Shown here: piece after piece, positions 38,186 to 51,446 of the stretch
How the letters are laid out: each line of letters begins with the position of its first letter
How positions within the stretch are numbered: position 1 is the stretch's first letter
From: Echinicola soli
GTDB lineage: Bacteria; Bacteroidota; Bacteroidia; Cytophagales; Cyclobacteriaceae
Reading direction: 5' to 3'
Length of the DNA: 64,000 nucleotides
NCBI RefSeq assembly: GCF_006575665.1
Contig: NZ_CP041253.1
Coordinates: 1,679,501-1,743,500 of the forward strand
The notes under the pieces: generated by a model
Seen by the model: the letters and a program-made list of their open reading frames with translations, nothing else
Database searches by the model: none
Told to the model about the DNA's origin: nothing
Translations under genes and position numbers: made by a program

Positions 38186-38671
38186 TCAGTTATTTTTATA
38201 GATAAGTGCCACACAATACGCAGAAACCCCTTCCTGTCTTCCCACAAAACCGAGTTTCTCTGTTGTGGTGGCCTTAATGGAGATATCATCCTCAGCGATG
38301 GCCATGACTTCAGCCAGGCAGGTCTTCATGGTGTCAATATGCGGGTTTACTTTTGGGAGTTGGAGGCAGATGGTGGTGTCCAGATTACCGATTTCGTAAC
38401 CTTTTTCACGGATCATTTTCATTACATCGGCCAATAGGATTTTACTGTCAATGCCTTTGTATTCAGGGTCCTGATCCGAGAAGTGGTGGCCAATGTCCCT
38501 CAAATTGGCAGCCCCCAGTAGGGCATCGCAGATTACATGGATCAGGACATCAGCATCAGAGTGGCCTACAGCTCCTTTGCTGTGTTCGATTTTAATCCCT
38601 CCCAGCCAAAAATCGTAGCCTTCCTGTAGCTGGTGCACATCATAACCAAATCCAATTCTAAATTTATTCAT
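38186..38671 (-). CDS. ispF: 2-C-methyl-D-erythritol 2,4-cyclodiphosphate synthase
   Basis: MEP-pathway enzyme, 161 aa. Shows FRIGFGYDVHQL at residues 3-14 with metal-binding Asp and His, the GHSDADVLIHVICDALLGA motif with the third ligand, and the C-terminal KATTTEKLGFVGRQEG. The ATG at 38671 matches the family start; a longer ORF from 38698 adds nine residues. It is the first gene of an ispF-mnmD pair and the second MEP gene in the window. Confidence 0.96.
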   Translation of the reverse strand: MNKFRIGFGYDVHQLQEGYDFWLGGIKIEHSKGAVGHSDADVLIHVICDALLGAANLRDIGHHFSDQDPEYKGIDSKILLADVMKMIREKGYEIGNLDTTICLQLPKVNPHIDTMKTCLAEVMAIAEDDISIKATTTEKLGFVGRQEGVSAYCVALIYKNN

Positions 38672-38805
38672 GGGGTGAAGATAACGGATTTTGCCCAAAT
38701 TTTCGAAACGATTGGCATGGTAAATCAGGGAAGGTGTGAATGTTTAATTAACCCGAAAAGCAAAGAAGTTATAACTACAAGGATTTTGTGTTAAAAGCCA
38801 AGGAA
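38672..38805. other. Gap between ispF start and the 292-bp array
   Basis: About 130 bp, AT-rich, should hold the ispF promoter on the minus strand. I find no exact TAnnTTTG match. Confidence 0.4.
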
Positions 38806-41725
38806 TAAGATATGGGTAAGCCGCAAAGTCACCAAGGCACTAAGTTTTTTTGGAGAAACAAAGGAGCAGACTGCGCGACACTTCCCAACAAATCTACTTT
38901 GTGACTTCGAGCCTTCGTGGCGAAAAAGCAGGCCACATATTGTTCCGACGGCTGTACTGCGGAAAAATGAGCAGTGAGTTTTTAGCTCAACACGTGTTAA
39001 AGTATGGGCAGCATAGAGTGTTCGATCTTTTCTATTAAGTGGTAATCAACGCCAATTTGTCTGCCCCCGCAGTTAGGTGGGCTAGCTTGGTAACGAGTAA
39101 GATATGGGTAAGCCACAAAGTCACCAAGGCACTAAGTTTTTTTGGAGAAACAAAGGAGCAGACTGCGTGACACTTCCCAACAAATCTACTTTGTGACTTC
39201 GAGCCTTCGTGGCAAAACAAGCAGGCCACCTGTTGTTCCGGCAGCTGTACTGCGGAAAAATGAGCATTGAGTTTTTAGCTCAACACGTGTTAAAGTATGG
39301 GCAGCATAGAGTGTTCGATCTTTTCTATTAAGTGGTAATCAACGCCAATTTGTCTGCCCCCGCAGTTAGGTGGGCTAGCTTGGTAACGAGTAAGATATGG
39401 GTAAGCCACAAAGTCACCAAGGCACTAAGTTTTTTTGGAGAAACAAAGGAGCAGACTGCGCGACACTTCCCAACCAATCTACTTTGTGACTTCGAGCCTT
39501 CGTGGCAAAAAAAAGCAGGCCACCTGTTGTTCCGGCAGCTGTACTGCGGAAAAATGAGCAGTGAGTTTTTAGCTCAATACGTGTTAAATTACGGTCTTCA
39601 TAGAGTGTTCGATCTTTTCTATTAAGTGGTAATCAACGCCAATTTGTCTGCCCCCGCAGTTAGGTGGGCTAGCTTGGTAACGAGTAAGATATGGGTAAGC
39701 CACAAAGTCACCAAGGCACTAAGTTTTTTTGGAATACAAAGGAGCAGACTGCACGACACTTCCCAACCAATCTACTTTGTGACTTCGAGCCTTCGTGGCA
39801 AAAAAAAGCAGGCCTCCTGTTGTTCCGGCAGCTGTACTGCGGAAAAATGAGCAGTGAGTTTTTAGCTCAACACGTGTTAAAGTATGGGCAGCATAGAGTG
39901 TTCGATCTTTTCTATTAAGTGGTAATCAACGCCAATTGGTCTGCCCCGCCGTTAGGTGGGCTAGCTTGGTAACGAGTAAGATATGGGTAAGCCACAAAGT
40001 CACCAAGGCACTAAGTTTTTTTTTGGAATACAAAGGAGCAGAGTGCACGACACTTCCCAACAAATCTACTTTGTGACTTCGAGCCTTCGTGGCAAAACAA
40101 GCAGGCCACCTGTTGTTCCGGCAGCTGTACTGCGGAAAAATGAGCAGTGAGTTTTTAGCTCAATACTTGTCAAATTGCGGTCTTCATAGAGTGTTCGATC
40201 TTTTCTATTAAGTGGTAATCAACGCCAATTTGTCTGCCCCCGCAGTTAGGTGGGCTAGCTTGGTAACGAGTAAGATATGGGTAAGCCACAAAGTCACCAA
40301 GGCACTAAGTTTTTTTGGAATACAAAGGAGCAGACTGCACGACACTTCCCAACAAATCTACTTTGTGACTTCGAGCCTTCGTGGCAAAAAAAGCAGGCCT
40401 CCTGTTGTTCCGACAGCTGTGCTACGGAAAAATGAGCATAGAGTTTTTAGCTCAACACGTGTTAAAGTATGGGCAGCATAGAGTGTTCGATCTTTTCTAT
40501 TAAGAGGTAATCGACGCCAATTGGTCTGCCCTGCCGTTAGGTGGGCTAGCTTGGTAACGAGTAAGATATGGGTAAGCCACAAAGTCACCAAGGCACTAAG
40601 TTTTTTTGGAATACAAAGGAGCAGACTGCACGACACTTCCCAACAAATCTACTTTGTGACTTCGAGCCTTCGTGGCAAAAAAAGCAGGCCTCCTGTTGTT
40701 CCGGCAGCTGTACTGCGGAAAAATGAGCAGTGAGTTTTTAGCTCAACACGTGTTAAAGTATGGGCAGCATAGAGTGTTCGATCTTTTCTATTAAGAGGTA
40801 ATCGACGCCAATTGGTCTGCCCTGCCGTTAGGTGGGCTAGCTTGGTAACGAGTAAGATATGGGTAAGCCACAAAGTCACCAAGGCACTAAGTTTTTTTGG
40901 AATACAAAGGAGCAGACTGCACGACACTTCCCAACCAATTCACTTTGTGACTTCGAGCCTTCGTGGCAAAACAAGCAGGCCACCTGTTGTTCCGGCAGCT
41001 GTACTGCGGAAAAATGAGCAGTGAGTTTTTAGCTCAACACGTGTTAAAGTATGGGCAGCATAGAGTGTTCGATCTTTTCTATTAAGAGGTAATCGACGCC
41101 AATTGGTCTGCCCCGCCGTTAGGTGGGCTAGCTTGGTAACGAGTAAGATATGGGTAAGCCGCAAAGTCACCAAGGCACTAAGTTTTTTTGGAATACAAAG
41201 GAGCAGACTGCACCACACTTCCCAACCAATCTACTTTGTGACTTCGAGCCTTCGTGGCAAAAAAATCAGGCCTCCTGTTGTTCCGACAGCTGTACTGCGG
41301 AAAAATGAGCATTGAGTTTTTAGCTCAACACGTGTTAAAGTATGGGCAGCATAGAGTGTTCGATCTTTTCTATTAAGTGGTAATCAACGCCAATTGGTCT
41401 GCCCCGCCGTTAGGTGGGCTAGCTTGGTAACGAGTAAGATATGGGTAAGCCGCAAAGTCACCAAGGCACTAAGTTTTTTTGGAGAAACAAAGGAGCAGAC
41501 TGCGCGACACTTCCCAACAAATCTACTTTGTGACTTCGAGCCTTCGTGGCAAAAAAAAGCAGGCCACCTGTTGTTCCGGCAGCTGTACTGCGGAAAAATG
41601 AGCATTGAGTTTTTAGCTCAATACGTGTTAAATTACGGTCTTCATAGAGTGTTCGATCTTTTCTATTAAGTGGTAATCAACGCCAATTGGTCTGCCCCGC
41701 CGTTAGGTGGGCTAGCTTGGTAACG
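38806..41725. repeat. Ten tandem copies of a ~292-bp non-coding unit
   Basis: Units begin (TAAGATATGGGTAAGCC) at 38806, 39098, 39391, 39685, 39977, 40271, 40562, 40853, 41144 and 41435; spacings are 291-294 bp. Each unit contains in order a CCACAAAGTCACC box, a T7 run, an inverse-oriented CTTTGTGACTTCGAGCC..CGTGGC box, a variable A run, the hairpin TTCCG(G)CAG/CTGCGGAA, the palindrome AACACGTGTT, and a GCCC..GCC/GG.GGGC hairpin. Frames of up to 97 codons cross each unit, but A-run length changes and non-triplet unit lengths break them, so it is not coding. Units differ in a mosaic fashion. Function unknown. Confidence 0.95.
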
Positions 41726-41835
41726 GATTGACATCGAATTCATGGTCGAACTGAGGTTCATAGGACACGATAGGGGTAAATTCAGCTAGTCGGCTTTCCG
41801 GTCCCTTCACTATTTTAATAGCTGATTAATAGTAA

Positions 41836-41906
41836 GCCACAAAGATTCTCGAAGACGCAATGAATCGCTAAACTTTTAAAGGTGAAGCCTTAGTGTCTTG
41901 GCGGCT
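41836..41906. repeat. Solitary CACAAAG-type inverted-repeat element
   Basis: GCCACAAAGATTCTCGAAGA on the left and TTAGTGTCTTGGCGGCT on the right form an imperfect stem. It resembles both the array unit's CACAAAG/CGTGGC module and 51221-51313. It sits 110 bp beyond the array and 39 bp past the M16 stop codon. Confidence 0.6.
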
Positions 41907-41944
41907 CATGTAGATTCTGGAGACTGAAAACTGTTGGCATCTGC

Positions 41945-43186
41945 CTACTGCTTATTGCTTTTATAATATAGCACAGAAGCATTGGATTCTTTGATAGTGG
42001 TGCGTGCCATGTCGGAAATTTGGTCAGCAGCGATGGCTGTTTTTTGGTCATATTCTATCTGGTAGATATCCGGTGATCCCAGTTGGGTATAATAGGCAAG
42101 GGTCATGGCCCTATTGATCAGCTGAATGGATTCATAGGTTTTCATGGCTTCCGCCTGGTTTTTTACTTTGTTGAGGATTTCTTGGGATATGGTGTTTTCA
42201 ATGAATTCGTGGACCACTTCATCCAAGACCTTTTCGGCCTCCTCTGCCGTTTTTCCTTTTTCCATTTTGGCAGAAAAGATCATAAGCCCGGGATCCAAGG
42301 CTCCTAAAATATAACCGTTGCAGGAAGCAAAGATACCGGTGTTTTTGACCAGTTTTTGCTCCAGTAGGGAAGATCTGCCAAAACCTAGAATATCAGTAAT
42401 CAAGTCACATTCGAGGTAGCCTTTTTGCATTCGTCCGGGCATGTGATAGGCTTTGTATAATGCATCAGTAGGGACATCTGCAGAATGGAAAAGGCTTCTT
42501 TTTTGGGTTTGCTTAGGTTCTTCCGAAATGGCGACCGGCGATGTTTTGACTGGAGGAATAGGGCCAAACCATTTTTTTGCCATCTCTAGCACTTCTGTTT
42601 CTTTTACATCACCAGCGACCACAAGAATGGCATTGTTTGGTGCATAATGGTATTGATAAAAAGACCTGATATCTTCTTCATCAAATCCCTCGATGTCTTT
42701 GATATCCTTGCCAATGGTGGGCCATTGGTAAGGATGTAAGTCATAGCAAAGGCCCCTCATCAGGTGCATGGCATCACCATATGGCTGATTCAGGTACCGC
42801 TGCTTAAACTCCTCAATGACCACTTTTCGCTGGGTTTCGATGGTCTTCTTGCTTAGGTTTAGCTGTAACATCCGGTCCGATTCCAGCCAGAAGGCCGTTT
42901 CGATATTGTTCGCCGGCAAGGTGATGTAGTAATTGGTGATGTCGGTATTGGTGAAGGCATTGCATTCCCCTCCCACACGCTCCAGGGCACTGTCAAATTT
43001 GGGAACATTCTTGGACCCTCCAAACATCAGGTGCTCGAAATAATGGGCAAGGCCTGTTTTTCCAGAGACTTCGTTGCGAGAACCTACCTTATAGATGATA
43101 TTAGTGACGGCCATCTTGGTGCTGTGATCTGGATGGATCAGTACCTGTAGGCCATTATCTAATACGTAATGTTCGTAATTAATCAT
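41945..43186 (-). CDS. M16-family zinc peptidase
   Basis: 413 aa, one inverzincin unit (two homologous halves). The zinc motif HxxEH is present as HYFEHLMF near residue 48-55, with the downstream Glu region in the first ~130 residues. No signal peptide is evident, so it may be cytoplasmic or leave by another route. M16 proteins often occur as active/inactive pairs; no partner is next to it here. Its 3' side faces the 292-bp array. Confidence 0.92.
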   Translation of the reverse strand: MINYEHYVLDNGLQVLIHPDHSTKMAVTNIIYKVGSRNEVSGKTGLAHYFEHLMFGGSKNVPKFDSALERVGGECNAFTNTDITNYYITLPANNIETAFWLESDRMLQLNLSKKTIETQRKVVIEEFKQRYLNQPYGDAMHLMRGLCYDLHPYQWPTIGKDIKDIEGFDEEDIRSFYQYHYAPNNAILVVAGDVKETEVLEMAKKWFGPIPPVKTSPVAISEEPKQTQKRSLFHSADVPTDALYKAYHMPGRMQKGYLECDLITDILGFGRSSLLEQKLVKNTGIFASCNGYILGALDPGLMIFSAKMEKGKTAEEAEKVLDEVVHEFIENTISQEILNKVKNQAEAMKTYESIQLINRAMTLAYYTQLGSPDIYQIEYDQKTAIAADQISDMARTTIKESNASVLYYKSNKQ

Positions 43187-51135: not shown

Positions 51136-51220
51136 CCTCAAAATGAGCTAAAAAGGAGGCAAGCGAAAAAGTTGAGGGCATGAATCCCTTTATTTTAATA
51201 GGATTTACTTTTTGTTTTTT

Positions 51221-51313
51221 TGTCACAAAGATTCTAAGACCCAAAGCTGTTTGTTTTCCATGAAATTTGGAATCCGCCTACAAAACACTTCGTGTCTTGG
51301 CGACTTCGTGGCG
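51221..51313. repeat. CACAAAG-type inverted-repeat element
   Basis: TGTCACAAAGATTCTAAGAC on the left; ACACTTCGTGTCTTGGCGAC and TTCGTGGCGACA on the right. Same style as 41836-41906 and as a module inside each 292-bp array unit. Confidence 0.6.
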
Positions 51314-51446
51314 ACATACCAAATGAATATAAATCTTCTCCCGTCCCCAGAAATATTGCTTGATCTCCGTTAGCGCTCAGTTTACCCATAGTAAATCATA
51401 TAGAACCATATTTTTTTCATTTATCAGAAATACTCCAAAAATAAAA

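Follow-up and report, generated by a model that had tools for sequence, protein, structure and literature searches.

In the BIMEs (bacterial interspersed mosaic elements) of enterobacteria, palindromic REPs and further short motifs succeed one another in a set order; these elements are intergenic, often arranged in tandem, and dispersed. In E. coli, BIMEs bind gyrase and IHF, and Pol I has also been named for them. The REP box in enterobacteria is GTAG/GTGG. How RAYTs (REP-associated tyrosine transposases) act on REPs is, to our knowledge, still open. Minisatellites (VNTRs) and MITEs are also compared with the locus described here. This locus, a tandem array in Echinicola soli, looks like a variant of a known bacterial repeat kind, and not like a gene or RNA of a new kind.

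The array is located at positions 38806-41725 of the window, which is the whole 64,000-nucleotide stretch of E. soli DNA that was analysed. Tandem Repeats Finder (TRF) resolved it into 10.0 copies with a period of 291, 95% matches, and a score of 5163, in agreement with an earlier note on this DNA that had claimed ten tandem units. The unit starts given in that note and the unit-to-unit spacings of 291-294 bp were likewise correct. The array occupies most of the 3246-bp intergenic gap between ispF and an M16-peptidase gene (both names are those of the earlier note). Within this gap, the order is a left border (module E), ten units each composed of modules A, B, and C, the 3' part of module D, and a degenerate A-like palindrome:

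38186-38698, minus strand: ispF
38777-38809, plus strand: module E, left border of the array (nhmmer E 2.7e-9)
38806-39097, plus strand: unit 1 (A 38819-38927, B 38940-38993, C 38996-39104)
39098-39390, plus strand: unit 2 (A 39111-39217, B 39229-39286, C 39289-39397)
39391-39684, plus strand: unit 3 (A 39404-39512, B 39523-39580, C 39583-39691)
39685-39976, plus strand: unit 4 (A 39698-39805, B 39816-39873, C 39876-39983)
39977-40270, plus strand: unit 5 (A 39990-40097, B 40109-40166, C 40169-40277)
40271-40561, plus strand: unit 6 (A 40284-40391, B 40401-40458, C 40461-40568)
40562-40852, plus strand: unit 7 (A 40575-40682, B 40692-40749, C 40752-40859)
40853-41143, plus strand: unit 8 (A 40866-40971, B 40983-41040, C 41043-41150)
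41144-41434, plus strand: unit 9 (A 41157-41264, B 41274-41331, C 41334-41441)
41435-41725, plus strand: unit 10 (A 41448-41556, B 41567-41624, C 41627-41727)
41748-41829, plus strand: right border, formed by the 3' part of module D (profile positions 42-115; nhmmer E 5.2e-15)
41834-41912, plus strand: degenerate A-like palindrome after D (recognized by eye; the A profile is silent here at E 1e-3)
41945-43186, minus strand: M16-peptidase gene

The five modules were derived from 33 fetched stretches of the E. soli genome together with the window, and the unit of the array is a composite of three of them, A-B-C. Module A (~107 nt) is a palindrome with octamer-periodic arms, the octamers being of the types CACNAAGN and CTTNGTGN. 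Module B is 58 nt in length and has two hairpins; its columns 4-7, at the foot of hairpin 1, read GTTG, each position in at least 90% of 39 copies. Module C (~109 nt) is followed by A, and in other copies its place is filled by module D (~115 nt). Module E is a short left border that directly precedes B at other loci, and its profile had eight matches in seven E. soli stretches and none in 14 stretches from relatives (nhmmer). The modules follow each other as E to B, A to B, B to C or D, and C or D to A. This order and the spacing are much alike in most units of the 34 E. soli stretches and the 14 relative stretches. In the ABC and ABD arrays of E. soli, the spacings are mostly 2 for B-C, 0 for B-D, 6 or 7 for C-A, 5 or 6 for D-A, and 8-12 for A-B. 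Exceptions are a B-C spacing of 10 in several units at L022, where B is shortened, an A-B spacing of 34 at L030, a B-A spacing of 29-32 at L038, a C-D spacing of 25 at L047, and the A-C arrays.

The earlier note had described the units as structured and non-coding, each with a run of seven T and the palindrome AACACGTGTT, and most of this description stands. The T run occurs ten times in the array, the array is tandem and its units are structured, and the products of four array ORFs (89-97 aa) matched no Pfam family at E ≤ 0.1. The palindrome is present and sits on the junction between B and C, but in only seven of the ten units; among the B copies listed outside the array, there is one other case of this reading.

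Provided that B is counted as a REP, the array resembles a BIME in being a tandem mosaic of B with other motifs in constant order. It differs from a BIME in its block, which is ~291 bp here and has three modules of 58 to ~110 nt, in its B copies, which are head-to-tail rather than alternating, in the octamer periodicity of the A arms, and in its phylum. Module B itself resembles a REP as a short hairpin element with many intergenic copies; its conserved box is GTTG, which is not the canonical one.

The two-hairpin form of B was evaluated in near and divergent copies. Across 39 near copies, 89.0% of cells are paired in the two-hairpin model. These copies had no covariation (one pair changed on both sides, with 482 of 500 shuffles as high), and RNAalifold did not recover the two hairpins from them. 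A MAFFT alignment of 17 divergent relatives, with rows of our own choosing (two E. soli B copies, 11 at RAYTs, and four dispersed in relatives), had changes on both sides in 14 of 17 pairs, which was reached by 0 of 500 shuffles. For 25 distinct model-fitted rows, 12 of 17 pairs changed on both sides (3 of 500 shuffles reached this), a count that leans towards structure, as does the former, because all rows except the two E. soli B copies came from a structure-aware search. The covariation score was 0.54-0.55 as compared with <0.1 in slid controls. The two-hairpin form of B-type elements, be it RNA or single-stranded DNA, thus persists across the depth of the genus and farther out.

A covariance model of B, built from the 39 copies, had relatives in eight of 118 family genomes, E. 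soli included, in a draw that omitted several congeners and used stricter filters. A pattern made from the B core had no match. The E. soli genome has four Y1-transposase loci. One of them holds a RAYT-like gene (185 aa) with B-like elements on both sides, two upstream (20.2 and 19.7 bits; E 0.0011 and 0.0015) and two downstream (12.9 and 10.2 bits; E 0.07 and 0.31). A blastn search with A, B, and C at the four Y1 loci yielded nothing better than E 0.06, and thus these distant B relatives were missed by blastn. IS200-type transposases were rejected as partners of B, as three of the four Y1 loci had no B match at E ≤ 1. The flanks of an IS200-type transposase at L072 (1220-1420 and 3220-3340) share similarity with portions of as many as five repeat stretches, and are none of modules A, B, and C.

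RAYT-like matches in the genus number 27, spread over 10 of 11 genomes; some are fragments and some share a place, and manual grouping gives 23 places. Ten of the 27 loci, that of the E. soli RAYT included, have B-model matches at E ≤ 0.1 in a search run without filters. All 33 of these matches lie within 0.8 kb of the RAYT frame in stretches that extend 1.5 kb. The other 17 loci have no B match at this threshold, and modules A, C, D, and E have no match at any of the 27. In NCBIfam, all eight RAYT products that were run score above the cut-off of NF047646 (the REP-associated tyrosine transposase family), and one IS200-type product fails it. The RAYT gene of the congener G005 has eleven B matches (33.7-45.9 bits) that alternate between plus and minus on both sides of the gene and lie in 238-bp tandem repeats as inverted pairs. 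A sequence-only profile of B also recovers ten of these eleven. At L204 (congener G006) and L210 (G005), RAYT-like genes are flanked by other hairpin repeats, around GTTGCAAACGAGGAC and CTCGTTGGAAACGAGG, and several REP-like families therefore seem to coexist in the genus.

The earlier note had described the array as having no transposase. This holds for its immediate surroundings, but the RAYT genes of the genus are flanked by relatives of B, a kinship that speaks for an origin among interspersed repeats and against an array built for a purpose. The likeness to REP/RAYT systems lies in these flanking relatives, which in G005 border the gene on either side as tandem inverted pairs. Unlike in such systems, the B subfamily of the window was found at none of the RAYTs, and the E. 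soli RAYT is flanked by a distant subfamily, so these matches do not point to a transposase that acts on window-type B. The array differs from REPINs as well, in that all ten of its B copies are on the plus strand and inverted pairs are absent, in contrast to the pairs at the G005 RAYT. Given the distant subfamily and the missing inverted pairs, membership in the REP/RAYT class falls short of proof.

One unit compared with the E. soli genome (one contig, 5,550,304 bases) had 108 matches. Ten of these are the array, and the remainder lie at 35 other places, many in tandem (places are a manual grouping of the 108 rows). Module B had 68 matches in 29 of 34 E. soli stretches, and module C had 38 matches at 17 places, also grouped manually. 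In the stretches, which were chosen by repeat match, 35 of 37 repeat blocks have an ORF of at least 100 aa on either side; one of the other two blocks has no left gene in its stretch, and the other overlaps a 100-aa ORF. The genes flanking the 35 blocks are co-directional in 18 cases, convergent in 11, and divergent in six (raw counts).

Several kinds of array are built from the modules, as determined by TRF on ten of 33 E. soli stretches and on all 14 relative stretches. E. soli has other ABC arrays of 6.5, 3.6, and 3.1 copies, an ABD array of 5.0 copies, an AB array of 8.9 copies, and an AC array of 2.6 copies, as well as A-only arrays of 12.8, 8.9, 4.4, and about 22 copies, the last at 78% matches. 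The congener G010 has ABD arrays of 3.9, 3.0, and 2.3 copies, and A arrays occur in G005 (9.0 copies), G003 (4.9 copies), and G059, which belongs to another genus (7.1 copies).

Copies of a module are more alike within a locus than between loci. The similarity within a locus was 0.939 for A, 0.925 for B, 0.944 for C, and 0.986 for D, versus 0.732, 0.832, 0.880, and 0.816 between loci, respectively (117, 59, 37, and 13 copies; 0 of 1000 label shuffles for each module). In the window array, 83 of 153 informative column pairs have all four combinations (four-gamete conflict), a sign of recombination between units. Units that lie farther apart were not clearly more divergent (Mantel r 0.198; 579 of 5000 permutations). 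The within-locus likeness and the column conflicts are the trace expected of in-place expansion with exchange between units, a mechanism that we infer from this trace.

The gap that holds the array is short in the congeners. The ispF and M16 frames are adjacent in all ten, with 42-233 bp between their tblastn matches, and modules A-E are absent from all ten 8.5-kb ispF-M16 stretches. A scan with the M16 protein, from which near records may be missing, yielded 51 loci in more distant Bacteroidota (51% at most over the full length and up to 55% over part of it). To the left of the array, the E. soli sequence matches that of congeners as far as 38708; on the right, the intergenic flank has no match in any of the ten. 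The exact insertion point and a target duplication are for this reason not visible. A second E. soli array site (852-854 kb) was similar, with a gap of 52-214 bp and no modules in the nine of ten congeners in which both flanking genes were found. For the L038 array, the relatives that were fetched lack a match to the left flanking gene, and this site gives no empty-gap comparison. At a third site, bounded by the same two genes, there are two A copies in G010 and nine in G005, and the arrangement in E. soli is different. A fourth orthologous site reads A-B-D-A-B-C in E. soli versus D-A-B-D-A-B-D in G010. The stretch L246 (G010:C1) has four D matches at 776-1468 in steps of ~219 bp, apparently a tandem array, on the downstream side of the ortholog of the gene that lies to the right of the E. 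soli AB array.

The earlier note would have counted it against its reading if no other genome had a related unit. This is not what was found, as congeners carry A, B, and D, and other genera carry relatives of A and B. Module C is confined to E. soli among the 11 genus genomes searched, being absent from all ten congeners. The array resembles minisatellites (VNTRs) in its tandem mosaic units and in the different numbers of copies that two species have at an orthologous site; unlike in these, the unit is a composite of dispersed modules rather than a unique local sequence. As regards an integron cassette array, which would have attC sites, cassette ORFs, and an IntI integrase, what is seen here is the repetition of whole units.

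The array probably arose by local tandem expansion of the composite A-B-C, drawn from a genus-wide set of modular, non-coding palindromic repeats comparable to BIMEs. REP-type B elements and A palindromes would have been scattered into intergenic gaps and chained as A-B-(C or D)-A, with RAYT activity perhaps having spread B. As A flanks B-C on both sides as a direct repeat, unequal exchange or slippage could have multiplied the block tenfold, and exchange or conversion between units would keep the units alike. The array may have no dedicated function, and it would work in the manner of a BIME.

A bolder form of this proposal is speculative, and we hold it to be doubtful. It takes A-B-(C or D)-A as a modular grammar in which modules are exchanged in place, with C in the slot of D at up to 17 places, and composites are amplified in tandem. 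The amplification could be the work of RAYT on B hairpins in single-stranded form, a role hinted at by the 238-bp tandem REP pairs that lie beside the RAYT of G005. If the proposal were true, RAYTs would be makers of long satellite-like arrays, beyond dispersed REPs. Irrespective of this proposal, one module ties long tandem arrays of Bacteroidota to the REP/RAYT world. The natural series of an empty gap and two, nine, and ten copies, along with the replacement of D by C, allows the birth and growth of satellite-like DNA to be traced. The G005 locus, with its RAYT between tandem REP pairs, could help test the action of RAYTs on REPs.

The local expansion of A-B-C has to be weighed against four other explanations. 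A MITE-like origin, with A-B-C as a non-autonomous element that moves as one and inserts beside itself, is unlikely. These repeats are, like MITEs, non-coding, palindromic, and dispersed in intergenic gaps, single A-B-C-A or A-B-D-A elements bounded by A occur at L034, L041, L048, and L049, and two array sites are without modules in congeners. However, constant ends of a whole element were not seen, and the modules recombine and also occur on their own (B alone at L044, L051, and L053, and the A-only arrays). Neither is a target duplication visible, as no alignment of the flanks spans the gap. Quite improbable in our estimate is a repeated small RNA, listed in the earlier note among other possible roles, or another functional structured RNA, the units of which would be transcribed and would set the dose by their number. 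The fold predicted for the consensus unit on the plus strand reaches -76.5 kcal/mol (a value without a shuffle control), the minus strand of the array has a -7-like box in six places, and the B hairpins have compensatory changes across genera, which fit single-stranded DNA equally. The claim nevertheless found no support in Rfam, of which no family reached its gathering score anywhere in the window, or in a search of either strand for a two-box promoter of the Bacteroidota type. It is also at odds with the free variation in module composition between arrays and with the lack of covariation in near copies of B.

By analogy with BIMEs, the array could instead bind protein or organize the chromosome, titrating a nucleoid or repair protein. 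The palindromic modules at mostly constant spacing, the many dispersed sites, and the octamer periodicity of the A arms would suit such an array, but the absence of C from the congeners and the free change in copy number argue against a conserved number of sites, and we assign this role a low probability. An assembly artefact in copy number is very improbable. Long, near-identical repeats are hard to assemble, and a genome in one contig makes a copy-number error less likely without ruling it out; the units are distinct variants in mosaic arrangement, though, and like arrays occur in independent assemblies of congeners. Local expansion of A-B-C from dispersed repeats remains our preferred explanation.

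Module A also occurs outside of composite arrays. Its arm motif CTTNGTGNCTTNGTGGC was found in 40 of 296 genomes drawn from the phylum, E. soli included, and a backwards control of the motif matched once in some genomes and 25 times in G223. The 25 control matches in G223 are all on one strand and probably belong to an unrelated repeat. Four-helix-bundle genes (TIGR02436), known as neighbours of A-type repeats, were rejected as partners of A here, since the stretches fetched around the seven genome matches have no A-E module or arm motif. Broken or stop-containing TIGR02436 frames are located at G000:C1 161713-161907, 1238324-1238645, 3001078-3001392, and 4627249-4627569. The window itself has a solo A-type palindrome outside the array, at 51215-51316 (nhmmer E 2.6e-16 on the minus strand and 7e-14 on the plus strand). 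A long degenerate run of A, with about 20 copies in steps of about 101-108 bp, occurs at L025 (G000:C1 1061608-1063953) and is split into two blocks ~480 bp apart.
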